Assembly: GCA_030523715.1 (NCBI GenBank)
Contig: JAUNHY010000005.1
Coordinates: 1-64,000, forward strand
Length of the DNA: 64,000 nt
Direction of reading: 5' to 3'
From: Candidatus Saccharimonadota bacterium
GTDB lineage: Bacteria > Patescibacteriota > Saccharimonadia > Saccharimonadales > Saccharimonadaceae
Of this stretch, positions 38,328 through 45,615 are shown one piece after another (the first letter of the stretch is position 1; each line of letters starts with the position of its first letter). The position numbers and the translations under genes were made by a program. The notes beneath the pieces are model-generated. The model did not search any database, was not told the origin of the DNA, and saw nothing but the letters and a program-made list of their open reading frames with translations.

Positions 38328-38331
38328 TAAT
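38326..38331 (+). promoter_or_regulatory. -10 box of the arylsulfotransferase gene
   Basis: TATAAT on the + strand; a short leader with TGGAGG precedes ATG 38351. It overlaps the divergent -10 of the GrpB operon. Confidence 0.5.
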
Positions 38332-38350
38332 GGTTTTAATTGGAGGTTTC

Positions 38351-40315
38351 ATGAAAAAGTATTCTTTGATAGATAAATTTTGGCTAGTTTTCTTACCGCT
38401 TCTAGTTTTGGCTATAATAATCTGTAGTCTTTCTGGAGTTATAAAGCCGAGGAGTCTTATGACTACAGAGCTAAGTGTTGCCGCAAAACAAAAACTATTC
38501 GAAGAACGAATTTCGGCGGATGGTTATACGTTTGATGACCCTAATATTATTCTTAATCCTTACGGAAACTCCCCCTTAACTGCCATAATCGCTTTCGAAA
38601 GCGAAACTCCGATTCGCCCAACCATTAAGATTATTGGGCACGACGATAAAACGACTATTGATTTCTCATTTAATATTTCTAGCACTCACTTACTCCCAAT
38701 TTATGGACTTTATCCTGGTGAAGATAATAAGATTGTTATTTCTTACGATGATATCGAAAAGGAAATCCATATCGTTACCGAAGATTTACCGGAGGATTTT
38801 CCGAAAGCTTCTGTTGTTGCATCGCAGCAAGATTTACTAGATAATCAGCTATATTTCTTTACGCCTTCTAGTAATGGTTATACTTGTGCCTATGATATTA
38901 ATGGCGAAGTACGTTGGTATCTAACGCAAAAAGCTATTTGGGATATTTCTCGTCTACAAAATGGGCACTTGTTATTATCGACCGAGCGTCTTCTGAATAA
39001 TCCTTACTATTTAACGGGTCTTTATGAAATTGATTTGCTCGGAAAGGTTCATGCTGAGTATTCTCTCCCTGGCGGTTATCATCATGATTATTTTGAGTTG
39101 GATAATGGAAACTTATTGATTGCGAGCGACAACTTTGATGGCGTTAATGATACTGTCGAAGATTATATTGTTGAACTAAATCGTATGACGGGTGTGGTTG
39201 AACGAAAATATAATCTAAAGGATATTTTGCCTGTTAATAACACCGGAAATGAGAACTGGTCTAGCGATGACTGGTTCCATAACAATGCAATTTGGTATGA
39301 CAAAGAGTCTAATGAAATTTTACTTTCTGGTAGACATGCGGATGCGATTATCGCCATTGACTATGAATCTGGAGATTTACGTTGGATTCTCGGCGATTCG
39401 ACCGGTTGGCCAGAAAACTATCGTCATTATTTCTTGAAACCGATTGGTAATAACTTTGAATGGCAGTGGAGCCAACATGCTGTTATGAAAACTCCCGAGG
39501 GTTATATATTCCTATTTGATAACGGAAATAATAAGTCGAAACTTTCGGATAGCTATGTCGCAGCCAACAATAGTTATTCGAGAGGCGTGATGTATAAAAT
39601 TGACGAATACGAAATGACTGTCGAGCAGATCTGGCAGTATGGCAAAGAGCGTGGAGCAAACTTTTACTCACCATATATTTCAGACGTCGATTACATTGAA
39701 GGCGGTCATTATATTATTCATTCCGGTGGTATTGTACGAAAAGATGGCGTAGCGTTAAATCAGCCCGCAGGTAGAACTGACGCTAACGAGCTATTATCTG
39801 ATACCGCTGAAATTATCAATAACGTTGTCGTCTTCGAATTGACGCTACCGACAAATACTTATCGCGTCGAGAAGATGTCTGCATATACTTCTGCAGATTA
39901 TAATGGTGTCTCGCTTGGCGATGCGATGCGTGTTGGCTCGTTAGGCAAAACGGAGATTGCAGAGACAAAGTATGGCCTAGTTCGTAGTGTCGATATTGAT
40001 GATAAATATAATTCGCATAGTATTAATCTAACAAAGCAAGAGGATCGCCTGGTGTTTTCGGGCACATTTAAACGCGGTAGCAATGTGCGACTCGTGCTTG
40101 TAAAAGGCCTCGAGCAAAAATACTATAAGTTGCGCGTGACAGATAAGGCTCATGCCGCACTTTGTGTTGCCGTTTTTGACGAGGGTGAGAATGAAGATCA
40201 AGAAGAGCTAACTATTACTCGTTTCATAAATGGCGAGGGGCTAAGTGGTAAATACGATGTCTACTTAGAGATTTATGATACGATTTATGACCTAAGGCAA
40301 CAGGCTTCGTTCTAA
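38351..40315 (+). CDS. Arylsulfotransferase (AssT)-like secreted protein
   Basis: 654 residues from ATG 38351 (TGGAGG upstream); an earlier in-frame start lacks a site. An N-terminal membrane/signal segment (about 8-30), an N-terminal beta domain, then a beta-propeller. ASST-type motifs: YDINGEVRWYLT, SLPGGYHHDYFELDNGNLLI, DDWFHNNAIWYD, SGRHADAIIAID...LRWILGD and WQWSQHAVMKTPEGYIFLFDNGN. The family moves sulfate between phenols using a catalytic His. It lies outside the membrane and is presumably anchored by its N-terminus. It ends four bases inside the convergent ABC-F gene. Substrate is unknown. Confidence 0.85.
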   Translation: MKKYSLIDKFWLVFLPLLVLAIIICSLSGVIKPRSLMTTELSVAAKQKLFEERISADGYTFDDPNIILNPYGNSPLTAIIAFESETPIRPTIKIIGHDDKTTIDFSFNISSTHLLPIYGLYPGEDNKIVISYDDIEKEIHIVTEDLPEDFPKASVVASQQDLLDNQLYFFTPSSNGYTCAYDINGEVRWYLTQKAIWDISRLQNGHLLLSTERLLNNPYYLTGLYEIDLLGKVHAEYSLPGGYHHDYFELDNGNLLIASDNFDGVNDTVEDYIVELNRMTGVVERKYNLKDILPVNNTGNENWSSDDWFHNNAIWYDKESNEILLSGRHADAIIAIDYESGDLRWILGDSTGWPENYRHYFLKPIGNNFEWQWSQHAVMKTPEGYIFLFDNGNNKSKLSDSYVAANNSYSRGVMYKIDEYEMTVEQIWQYGKERGANFYSPYISDVDYIEGGHYIIHSGGIVRKDGVALNQPAGRTDANELLSDTAEIINNVVVFELTLPTNTYRVEKMSAYTSADYNGVSLGDAMRVGSLGKTEIAETKYGLVRSVDIDDKYNSHSINLTKQEDRLVFSGTFKRGSNVRLVLVKGLEQKYYKLRVTDKAHAALCVAVFDEGENEDQEELTITRFINGEGLSGKYDVYLEIYDTIYDLRQQASF

Positions 40316-41994: not shown

Positions 41995-43572
41995 ATGAAG
42001 CGTAACGCAACCATATTGGCAATAGCTTTGGCTTTGGTGCTGATTTTGGTAGCGATTTTTCTCCCTCGTTCTAGAGAATTTTCTTTTTCGGATACTCAGA
42101 TAACACAAGAAGAATGGGATAAGATTATTTCTACCCATATTTATAATAAATATCTGAACCTTGATGGTGTTACTTTTAATGGCTATGAACTCCAACTAGA
42201 TTCGGATAATGACCGGTATTTTTACTCTATTATTGAAGGTGATGACGATGCCTATGCGCCGTTGGTCTATTTCCCGAAGAATAGCCTCGTGAAGATTGCG
42301 ACGCTAGACCCGAACATCAGTTATAATCGCACCGCAAAAAATGAGACTACGCGGATGCTTATTTATACGAGCGTTGATTATCGTGAGGTTGAGCTCGTAA
42401 CTACGACTTTGCCGTTGTTGAATATCGACACGAAAGGCCACCGCAACCTAAGCGAAGAATATAGTGATGCTCATATTAAAATATTTGATAACCGTCAATT
42501 TGCTCATTCGCGGAATATTGAGTCTGATACAAAAATACATATTCGTGGCTCGACATCTCTCTGGCAAGAAAAGAAAAGTTACAGACTGAATTTGACTTTG
42601 CCGAATGGCGCTAATAACCATATTGGTTTGCTCGGAATGCGCAAAGATGATGATTGGGTCTTAAACAATCTATATGGCGATCATGAAAAAGTGCGCAATA
42701 TTCTTTCGGCGCAATTGTGGAATGATTGTTGTAGTTATCATAATGAGGCCGAGGCACAGAATAGCTTCGAATATCGATTCGTAGAAGCATTTATTGATAA
42801 CTCATATGCCGGATTATATCTATTGGGCTACAAGCCAGATAAAAAGACCGAAAATCTTCGCGGCGACGAACTTCTTTTTAAAGGTAAAGATTGGAGCAAT
42901 GCGGAGGTTTTGGCTAACGACGATAATTTTTCGCGTTACTATGAGTTAGAAAAAGGAGACATAGACGAAACACTAGCTAAAGAAGAGCTAATGAAATATA
43001 TCAATGCGATTGCCTATGGTTCAGCTGAGGATATTTATCATATGTTTGATGTAGATAACGCTATCGACATTGAGCTGCATGGTATGCTTACTCAGAATGT
43101 CGATTATGCCAAAGATAATAAAACTAAGAATCTTTATCTAACTATCAAGCATAGTCCTAGTCGGAGCTATTTATTATATACGCCATGGGACTTCGATTTG
43201 AGCTTAGGTAACTCCTGGAAAAATCATACGGCTAATATGTCTAGTACTGATTCTTATGGGTCTCCTATTGATACTATAATTGTAACTGAACAGATGCCGA
43301 CGGGCGCGTTGCGAAGGCTCGGCGATAGCAATATAGAGCAAAAAATTAAAGCTCGTTATGCTGAATTGAGGGGCGGAGCATGGAATGATGAGCATATCTT
43401 CGGTCTTGTCGATAGTTATGAGCGCAAGATATTCGAATCAGGCGCATACTTTCGAGAGGAAACACGCTGGCCGAATGGTAATTATCTAGAAGGAGCTTTT
43501 GACCTGAGTGCCTTCAAAAATTATCTCCGTGAAAGAATTGATTTCGTCGATTCCTATTACGGATATCGCTAA
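41995..43572 (+). CDS. CotH-family secreted protein kinase-like protein
   Basis: 525 residues. An N-terminal signal/anchor (about 5-24) and a CotH domain from about residue 120. Landmarks: IHIRGSTSLWQEKKSYRLNLTL, DDDWVLNNLYGDHEKVRNILSAQLW, FVEAFIDNSYAGLYLLGYKPD and LYTPWDFDLSLGN (DxD metal site). CotH of Bacillus phosphorylates spore-coat proteins; non-sporulating bacteria also encode secreted members. Here it would phosphorylate surface proteins, but ATP outside the cell is an open question. Divergent from ABC-F; leaderless by its -10. Confidence 0.85.
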   Translation: MKRNATILAIALALVLILVAIFLPRSREFSFSDTQITQEEWDKIISTHIYNKYLNLDGVTFNGYELQLDSDNDRYFYSIIEGDDDAYAPLVYFPKNSLVKIATLDPNISYNRTAKNETTRMLIYTSVDYREVELVTTTLPLLNIDTKGHRNLSEEYSDAHIKIFDNRQFAHSRNIESDTKIHIRGSTSLWQEKKSYRLNLTLPNGANNHIGLLGMRKDDDWVLNNLYGDHEKVRNILSAQLWNDCCSYHNEAEAQNSFEYRFVEAFIDNSYAGLYLLGYKPDKKTENLRGDELLFKGKDWSNAEVLANDDNFSRYYELEKGDIDETLAKEELMKYINAIAYGSAEDIYHMFDVDNAIDIELHGMLTQNVDYAKDNKTKNLYLTIKHSPSRSYLLYTPWDFDLSLGNSWKNHTANMSSTDSYGSPIDTIIVTEQMPTGALRRLGDSNIEQKIKARYAELRGGAWNDEHIFGLVDSYERKIFESGAYFREETRWPNGNYLEGAFDLSAFKNYLRERIDFVDSYYGYR

Positions 43573-43894: not shown

Positions 43895-45097
43895 ATGAGT
43901 AAGCACGAGCGTTACATGAGAAAGAAATCTTTTACTAAAATACTGATAGCAGCGACTACTATCTTTTGCGCTGCCTTTACTATTATTTCTGTACCGTCTC
44001 CTGTTAGTGCGGCCACCGAAATGTGCCAATGCACGAATACCTATTCAGATGGCACGACGAAGGTCGAAGAAGGATCCCCGGCATTGATGTTTGCCGATAG
44101 CAATGGCTGCTACTGTGGCGGGACGATTAATATAATTAAGACCGCTCTAAATATATTTATGGCCGGGATCGCAGTATTAGGCACTATCGGCATTATTTGG
44201 TCTGGTTTTATGTATATGAGTGCTCGCGATAACGAGGCGCAGACTGCACAAGCCAAAAACCGTATGATCCAAATTTTTATTGGTATCGCCGCTTTCGGAT
44301 TATTCGATGTTGCGGCGAACCTGCTTCTCCCTGGTGGCATGGCGAGCGCTACTCCTACTGTGGTTAGCTCTACTTCCAAGAAGGTCGCTCGTACGGATAT
44401 GGAGATTGAAAGACCGGCCAGCAGTGCTCCAACCTCTACGCCATCCTCATCGTCTACTTCTTCATCGTCGCCATCTTCTTCCTCAACTTCCTCTTCATCT
44501 CCTTCCTCTTCTTCGCAATCTTCAAGCTCTACTCCGCCTGGTGGGAATAATTGTTCCGATTACGGTGTCGGTAGTGGCGGTTCTTTCCAGACGCAATATA
44601 GTGATGAAACACAGTGGAAAGGTGGTAACTGTCCAAACTGTCAAATTCGAAAATCTGGTTGTCCGATGGTAGCAGCACTTAATGCGATTATTAAGGTCAC
44701 TGGATGCAAACTCACTAAGAAAATGTTCGCGCAGCACATGAAAGAATATACTAATGGTTTCACTAATCGTAAGGGGCTGTTCTTGAATGATAGTGATTGG
44801 AGCAACACTGGTGGCCCAATAGTTGAACATTATTTAAGTACTTATAAAGTTCATTATAAAACCATCAGTAAAGGACAAGTGAAATCAGCACTCCAGGCCG
44901 GTCATGCAGTTGTCGCGCGTGGGAAAGGTACCGATGGTTCAAATCATGTATTTTCTGATGGTGGACATTATGTAGCATTTACTAGTATTAGTGGTAATAC
45001 TGTCAAAGTCCAGAATCCTGCGCGAAGTGCCTATGGTAGCGTTTCTTATGAAACCGCGGTTAAATATGCTACTAATTTTTGGGAGGTATGGAAATAA
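43895..45097 (+). CDS. VirB2/TrbC-like pilin fused to a C39-like cysteine peptidase
   Basis: 400 residues in three parts. Residues 1-40 are a signal peptide (cut near SPVSAA). Residues 75-147 carry two membrane helices around a short basic loop (NIFMAGIAVLGTIGIIWSGF...KNRMIQIFIGIAAFGLFDVA), the pattern of T4SS pilins. About 175-215 is a Ser/Pro linker of repeated SSSSPSSSS-type units. Residues 228-400 are a papain-like C39/C39-2 domain with Q232, C256 (in KSGCPMVA), H358 (GGHYVAF) and N374 (VQNPA) in place. A Cys-rich patch precedes the first helix. Such a peptidase on a pilin would act outside the cell, for instance on substrates exported by the pilus or on host peptides. Confidence 0.75.
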   Translation: MSKHERYMRKKSFTKILIAATTIFCAAFTIISVPSPVSAATEMCQCTNTYSDGTTKVEEGSPALMFADSNGCYCGGTINIIKTALNIFMAGIAVLGTIGIIWSGFMYMSARDNEAQTAQAKNRMIQIFIGIAAFGLFDVAANLLLPGGMASATPTVVSSTSKKVARTDMEIERPASSAPTSTPSSSSTSSSSPSSSSTSSSSPSSSSQSSSSTPPGGNNCSDYGVGSGGSFQTQYSDETQWKGGNCPNCQIRKSGCPMVAALNAIIKVTGCKLTKKMFAQHMKEYTNGFTNRKGLFLNDSDWSNTGGPIVEHYLSTYKVHYKTISKGQVKSALQAGHAVVARGKGTDGSNHVFSDGGHYVAFTSISGNTVKVQNPARSAYGSVSYETAVKYATNFWEVWK

Positions 45098-45615
45098 TGG
45101 AAAATTCAAACTCTTGGCATGGTGGTGCTAGCGCAGTTGTGCCCGCTGGATATGATAATCCGGAGCAGCCTAAGAAGAATTTCAAAATATTAATCATTTC
45201 CGGAATAGTATTACTTATTCTCATCGTCGTTACAGTAGTAGCGGTTCTAACGCTCGGGAATAATAGTGACTCTGATTATGCGGGCGAAGAATATGATATT
45301 AGCTCAGAAAACACCGGCGGCGAAGATGTTGTTATTCCAGCAGATGAATCGCTTGATTTTCTCGATAAATATCCTATTTCGGACGAGAGTAAAACTTCTA
45401 TCATGATGGCAATATATGATAATCTCGATAAGTTTTACTCAAATTCTGGATATACTGTCGTTCATTACGATCTTGATAGCGTAGAATCTTCGGGATCATC
45501 TATTTCATTTAACTTTACGACCGACATCGAAGACGTGACATTTCATGCATTAATTGGTTATGATAAAGACGGCAACATTAGTTATACTTACATAACATAT
45601 AGTGAAACTGAGTAG
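45097..45615 (+). CDS. Single-pass membrane protein co-encoded with the pilin-peptidase
   Basis: 172 residues. ATG 45097 overlaps the TAA of the previous gene (TAATG), so it is translated with it. A hydrophilic N-terminus, one membrane helix (about 36-58), an acidic linker, and a 90-residue outer domain rich in Tyr, Ser and Asp. No known family; it could be an accessory or inhibitor of the adjacent peptidase, which is inference from position only. Confidence 0.6.
   Translation: MENSNSWHGGASAVVPAGYDNPEQPKKNFKILIISGIVLLILIVVTVVAVLTLGNNSDSDYAGEEYDISSENTGGEDVVIPADESLDFLDKYPISDESKTSIMMAIYDNLDKFYSNSGYTVVHYDLDSVESSGSSISFNFTTDIEDVTFHALIGYDKDGNISYTYITYSETE

Follow-up and report, generated by a model that had tools for sequence, protein, structure and literature searches.

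VirB2-like pilins and their gene arrays have been reported in Patescibacteria in a study that, in the passages available, also discusses VirB1 hydrolases (PMC12102498). The T4SS with its VirB2-like pilin array is reported to be essential in one species (PMC12857230, PMC12102498), S. epibionticum as cited in the available passages of PMC12102498, and a 2025 review, in the part available, mentions the pilin array alone. Patescibacteria depend on other microbes, and the function of their pilins and the means by which cells of this size breach the surface of a host are standing questions. The locus described here involves the same pilin type in the same organisms, and the plain pilin of its genome sits in such an array. 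The accessible passages of PMC12102498 describe pilins alone in these arrays and mention no enzyme passenger, linker, or partner gene. No pilin-enzyme fusion is described in the passages of that paper that were found; subscription papers and preprints lay outside the search, and a prior description is possible.

The window, the whole 64,000-nucleotide stretch of DNA that was analyzed, is contig C11 of an 888-kb genome of rumen-type Saccharibacteria. A forward-strand open reading frame at 43895-45097 encodes a 400-residue protein made up, in order, of a signal peptide, a Cys segment, a pilin hairpin, a linker, and a C39-like domain. The features of this gene and its partner are as follows.

43895..44014, + strand: Sec-type signal peptide, residues 1-40, ending ...PVSA/ATE (from sequence; helix at residues 3-31 in the model)
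44015..44107, + strand: short segment with Cys, ahead of the pilin, CQCTNTYSDGTTKVEEG...NG (common to the orthologues and L046)
44108..44341, + strand: T4SS (VirB2/TrbC-like) pilin helix-loop-helix, residues ~72-149, with loop ARDNEAQ (PF18895, NF045849, model, and alignment A7)
44357..44539, + strand: low-complexity Ser/Pro/Thr-rich linker, residues ~155-215 (from sequence; pLDDT <50 at residues 163-212)
44546..45094, + strand: C39-like papain-fold peptidase passenger, residues 218-400 (PF13529 above cut-off, invariant residues, and fold matches)
45097..45615, + strand: partner with a short N-terminal tail, one transmembrane (TM) helix, a juxtamembrane TGG, and an ectodomain of a helix and four strands (orthologues, model, and gene junction)

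Other genes lie nearby. An arylsulfotransferase (PF05935, E 4e-97) with its Ig-like N-terminal domain is encoded at 38330-40315 (+), which is unexpected for so reduced a genome. Just upstream of the fusion, at 41995-43572 (+), is a CotH kinase-family protein (PF08757, E 6.5e-30), whose gene overlaps the called 5' end of an ABC-F gene on the opposite strand. At the L045 locus, an ABC-F-like gene is directly upstream of the fusion orthologue.

The initial annotation had proposed that the protein begins with a signal peptide and two pilin-like helices. Indeed, the signal peptide precedes a pair of hydrophobic helices joined through a short charged loop, the arrangement expected of a member of this pilin family, and the AlphaFold2 model contains two long helices at residues 77-109 and 114-144. 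The window fusion matches the pilin-like NCBIfam family NF045849 (E 5e-6) and Pfam TrbC (E 0.0034). Its match to PF18895 (T4SS_pilin) at residues 79-139 has an E value of 5.6e-4 and, at 20.4 bits, falls below the cut-off of 26.6 bits, which is passed by the orthologue L138 (30.6 bits) and by L046 (33.5 bits), a protein with the same kind of Cys-containing pre-pilin segment and a different passenger. The same genome also encodes a plain pilin free of peptidase, of the kind that had been suggested as a check, which is 44% identical to fusion residues 23-151 (E 2e-22). This plain pilin adjoins PrgI-, VirB4-, and VirB6-like genes in the T4SS cluster of contig C2 (the VirB6-like label comes from sequence only, without a Pfam match). 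The pilin call is supported by the NF045849 match, the orthologues above the PF18895 cut-off, and the related plain pilin at T4SS genes.

The C-terminal domain, in which Gln, Cys, His, and Asn had been noticed in papain-like order, matches PF13529 (Peptidase_C39_2) at residues 252-376 with 28.4 bits against a cut-off of 24. Gln234, Cys256, His358, and Asn374 are invariant across four aligned orthologues, and the Cys, His, and Asn also fall inside conserved blocks of L138 and L139, so the catalytic assignment withstood the comparison with homologues. Structure prediction agreed as well, giving a mostly confident papain-like domain (AlphaFold2; block mean pLDDT mostly 66-96 over residues 218-400) in addition to the two long helices. 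The predicted passenger fold has many matches among C39/papain structures, with Z scores of 9-12.6. The top match is PeiR (PDB 8z4h; Z 12.6, rmsd 2.8 over 139 residues, 14% identity), followed by the C39 domains of ComA and PCAT1 (Z 11.7) and a papain-like toxin with its immunity protein (9l5u; Z 11.6); CdiA-CT and staphopain are also among the best. Differences of less than 1 Z unit count as ties, so the fold reads as C39/papain-like and does not indicate a substrate. A sequence search of the PDB gave no usable match. In the orthologue pair L139/L137, passenger dN is 0.008 and dS is 0.417 (dN/dS ~0.02); the invariant Gln/Cys/His/Asn and the low dN relative to dS in this one close pair suggest that the window peptidase is probably active. 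These two loci come from two genera (L137 in G260 and L139 in G394), and their C39 passengers and partners are nearly identical in protein, with 3 amino-acid-changing and 31 silent differences in the passenger, reflecting either recent transfer or a misbinned contig.

With six full-length orthologues, counting the window copy, and one truncated orthologue, as well as 103 long ORFs with the same pilin type in a set of 61 near relatives plus 393 genomes from the order, the fusion is confirmed as real, far beyond chance. A single-protein query of the genome contigs returned no relative of the window fusion, and an alignment query returned six. The named records with orthologues are Candidatus Saccharibacteria; a source is stated for two of them, sheep omasum and water-buffalo rumen. 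What had been noticed as a single protein thus belongs to a large modular family with interchangeable enzymes, N- or C-terminal passengers, and dedicated partner genes. The window genome itself contains at least six pilin-enzyme fusions, five long ones found with the window protein and a sixth found separately. The sixth (L213:3229-4806, contig C1) joins the pilin to a pair of Big_2 domains and one esterase-like domain. One of the five, the C39C fusion at L013:8460-9660 on contig C5, is frameshifted within the pilin hairpin in the assembly, which represents either a broken gene or an assembly error.

Passengers identified by Pfam include VanY, C39_2, NlpC/P60, phage tail lysozyme, NAGPA, Y_phosphatase3, abhydrolase, GDSL, metallo-beta-lactamase, and endolysin-like domains, some with scores under the curated cut-off. 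There are three C39-like passenger groups besides that of the window, as well as NlpC/CHAP-like passengers and, as we read the sequences, a putative beta-propeller-like group. Most ORFs have either the pilin followed by the passenger or the passenger followed by the pilin. Known VirB2-type pilins have both termini facing out, and if this holds here, the passenger would be outside in both layouts. In several genomes, a fusion is the first gene of the pilin array. A phylum-wide search found the pilin itself across Patescibacteria, including in fusions to very large surface proteins. Two such proteins of >3,000 residues, from other Patescibacteria, start with a pilin hairpin of the same kind (L214:29-10084 and L215:2-10993, the latter running off its stretch), and at L219:1787-2881, four tandem pilin hairpins are encoded in one protein, with single pilins adjoining.

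Near-identical pilins carry unrelated passengers. In genome G026, L047 (VanY) and L048 (C39-like) share 82% identity up to where the pilin ends; the similarity between their passengers does not exceed that of shuffled sequence. Similarly, L051 (VanY) and L066 (C39-like) of G034 are 80% identical over 257 residues, with passengers again no better than shuffled. The pilins of L070 and L071, from two species, are 99% identical, and their N-terminal regions are 36% identical. Across 15 sequences with unrelated passengers, the pilin domain has a mean column identity of 56%, loop included. The family displays the constant delivery module and exchanged effector domains by which a polymorphic system is recognized.

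Downstream of the window fusion, the ATG of the partner gene overlaps the fusion TAA by one base (TAATG), as it also does in L043, L044, and L138. Orthologues of this partner occur only directly downstream of the window passenger type (7/7, including one contig-truncated case), and all 18 C39-type fusions adjoin a single-TM ectodomain protein. Family R3 accompanies the six fusions of the window group (C39A) and the truncated seventh, R4 accompanies C39B (4/4), and R1 accompanies C39C/D (8/8, two of them recovered by profile search). Among pairs of N-pilin fusions having partners, the partner family is common to 45 of 62 same-passenger pairs (73%) versus 23 of 533 different-passenger pairs (4%); at 45-60% pilin identity, the counts are 16/18 versus 8/83. 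As the pairs are non-independent, these counts are descriptive and carry no probability. In the swapped pairs above, the C39B members have a partner and the VanY twins, L047 and L051, do not. The C39B partner gene lies upstream of the fusion, on its pilin side, yet tracks the passenger. An orphan R4-like gene (L010:7360-8124, E 2.5e-8) lies between the two C39B operons of the window genome. Partners are not universal, since a recognizable one is lacking beside many NlpC/CHAP-like fusions and several VanY fusions. Members of R1 and R4 are also found beside other passengers (lysozyme in L069 and metallo-beta-lactamase in L164). Neighbor-gene specificity is strong for the C39 groups and absent or shared for several other passengers.

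A single ancestor for all partners was considered and rejected, as R1, R3, and R4 align over the TM or short stretches only; the alignment of R0 with R2 partners covers most of their length (hhalign probability 97.6). Some short motifs recur in the cytoplasmic tails of partner families with differing ectodomains (e.g., L048:3230-3823, L053:2692-3363, and L057:2682-3200), GSMVEPxxP-like in R1/R4 and FExxFxxxV-like in R0/R2. The predicted model of the window partner matches designed beta-sheet proteins by Foldseek (E 0.013-0.017), one of them labeled a cystatin fold, with Z scores of 4.4-5.2, which are weak and within the range of common arrangements. Cystatins inhibit papain-like peptidases; as the match is weak, the possible cystatin-like topology of the ectodomain is a hint at most.

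The TGG at partner residues 73-75, just outside the membrane, is unchanged in seven partners that diverge elsewhere and is a possible double-glycine cleavage site for a C39 enzyme. This invariance, like the fold matches to double-glycine C39 peptidases (Z 11-12), is what would be expected if the C39 domain were a processing protease that cuts after double glycine with its own partner as substrate. We consider this very improbable: TGG is absent from the partners of the other C39 groups among the sequences read, the other passengers would be left without a reason, and, to our knowledge, C39_2 proteins as a group are not leader peptidases. A surface peptidase feeding on environmental peptides, with the pilin hairpin as its membrane anchor and no role for the T4SS, would suit both the position of the window fusion away from T4SS genes and the value of amino-acid scavenging to a reduced genome. 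The pilin is nonetheless more strongly constrained than an anchor needs (56% mean column identity in 15 sequences) and is close to the T4SS-linked plain pilin, and fusions head pilin arrays in several genomes, making this account unlikely in our judgment. Equally little weight goes to a housekeeping role, in which the fusions would be VirB1-like hydrolases opening the cell's own peptidoglycan for T4SS assembly under regulation by the partner. The presence of six or more different fusions in a single genome and the swapping of passengers are a poor fit to one conserved step, as are esterase, phosphatase, and metallo-beta-lactamase passengers, and none of the fusions found in the window genome is inside the T4SS cluster on contig C2. 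What speaks for such a role is that many passengers are cell-wall enzymes, that most VirB2-bearing Patescibacterial genomes have no recognized VirB1, and that gram-positive VirB1s carry CHAP (the last two points from available passages of PMC12102498).

We lean slightly toward the reading that the T4SS pilin is a carrier that displays exchangeable enzymes at the host-contact surface, with the partner as a cognate inhibitor; pilus incorporation, enzymatic activity, a host substrate, and inhibition by the partner are what we infer within it. The signal peptide and pilin hairpin would place the C39-like peptidase outside the cell, where the fusion may join the membrane pool of T4SS pilins or be built into a pilus alongside plain pilins. 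The peptidase would then cleave a bond, in a peptide or in the cell wall, at the surface of the microbe on which the Saccharibacterium lives, as one of an exchangeable pilin-carried set of peptidases, NlpC/CHAP-like enzymes, VanY, tail lysozyme, esterases, and phosphatases. The translationally coupled, membrane-anchored partner would protect the producer's own surface.

The initial annotation is partly supported as an interpretation. Given the signal peptide and the two-helix pilin hairpin ahead of the passenger, the best reading is that it would act at the surface or at host contact. The initial annotation had envisaged host peptides as possible targets; the wall of the host is no less likely to be attacked than its proteins, since several sister passengers (VanY, tail lysozyme, and NlpC/CHAP-like) are cell-wall enzymes by family. 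The presence of both C39 and VanY passengers in the close relative G026 points to bacterial peptidoglycan. A pseudomurein (methanogen) target was raised by the PeiR match and the two rumen/omasum orthologue records; it was kept at low probability because the remaining C39 structures score within 1 Z unit of PeiR, a tie, and because of the C39 and VanY passengers of G026. A search for pseudomurein-binding repeats (PF09373) found none in 41 genomes of the genus, and a control search was equally silent, so this result is uninformative.

A larger and distinctly tentative proposal is that the Saccharibacteria T4SS pilus is an enzyme-bearing fibre and polymorphic effector system, in which the pilin delivers, passengers are swapped through recombination to suit the host surface, and matching surface-anchored partners confer immunity. 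If true, this would set which hosts these episymbionts can breach. A pilin with exchangeable enzymes would offer a testable answer to both standing questions, together with a list of candidate host-contact genes and candidate inhibitors. The range of passengers suggests a set of tools with which the surfaces of other microbes could be opened.

Polymorphic toxin systems and Xanthomonas T4SS effectors with immunity proteins also have a constant delivery module, exchangeable effector domains, and cognate and orphan neighbor genes. In contrast to both, the delivery module here is a structural pilin subunit that can lie on either side of the passenger, and the partners are single-TM surface proteins, with toxicity and immunity as candidate functions. 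VirB1/TraG-type hydrolases are likewise T4SS-linked cell-wall enzymes, including CHAP (PMC12102498, available passages); VirB1 is without a pilin domain, and many passengers of the pilin fusions are not wall hydrolases. PeiR (PMC6189367), a C39 pseudomurein endoisopeptidase encoded by a virus of a rumen methanogen, is the best fold match, yet it ties with ComA and PCAT1, and the window passenger is 14% identical to it, with no pseudomurein-binding repeats seen. In the same phylum, a Patescibacterial operon likewise has papain-like or Gly-Gly peptidases that are interchangeable on one membrane anchor (PMC12419801). There the anchor, with links to VanZ and to an ABC transporter, is formed by a coiled coil, whereas the passengers described here are joined to a pilin.
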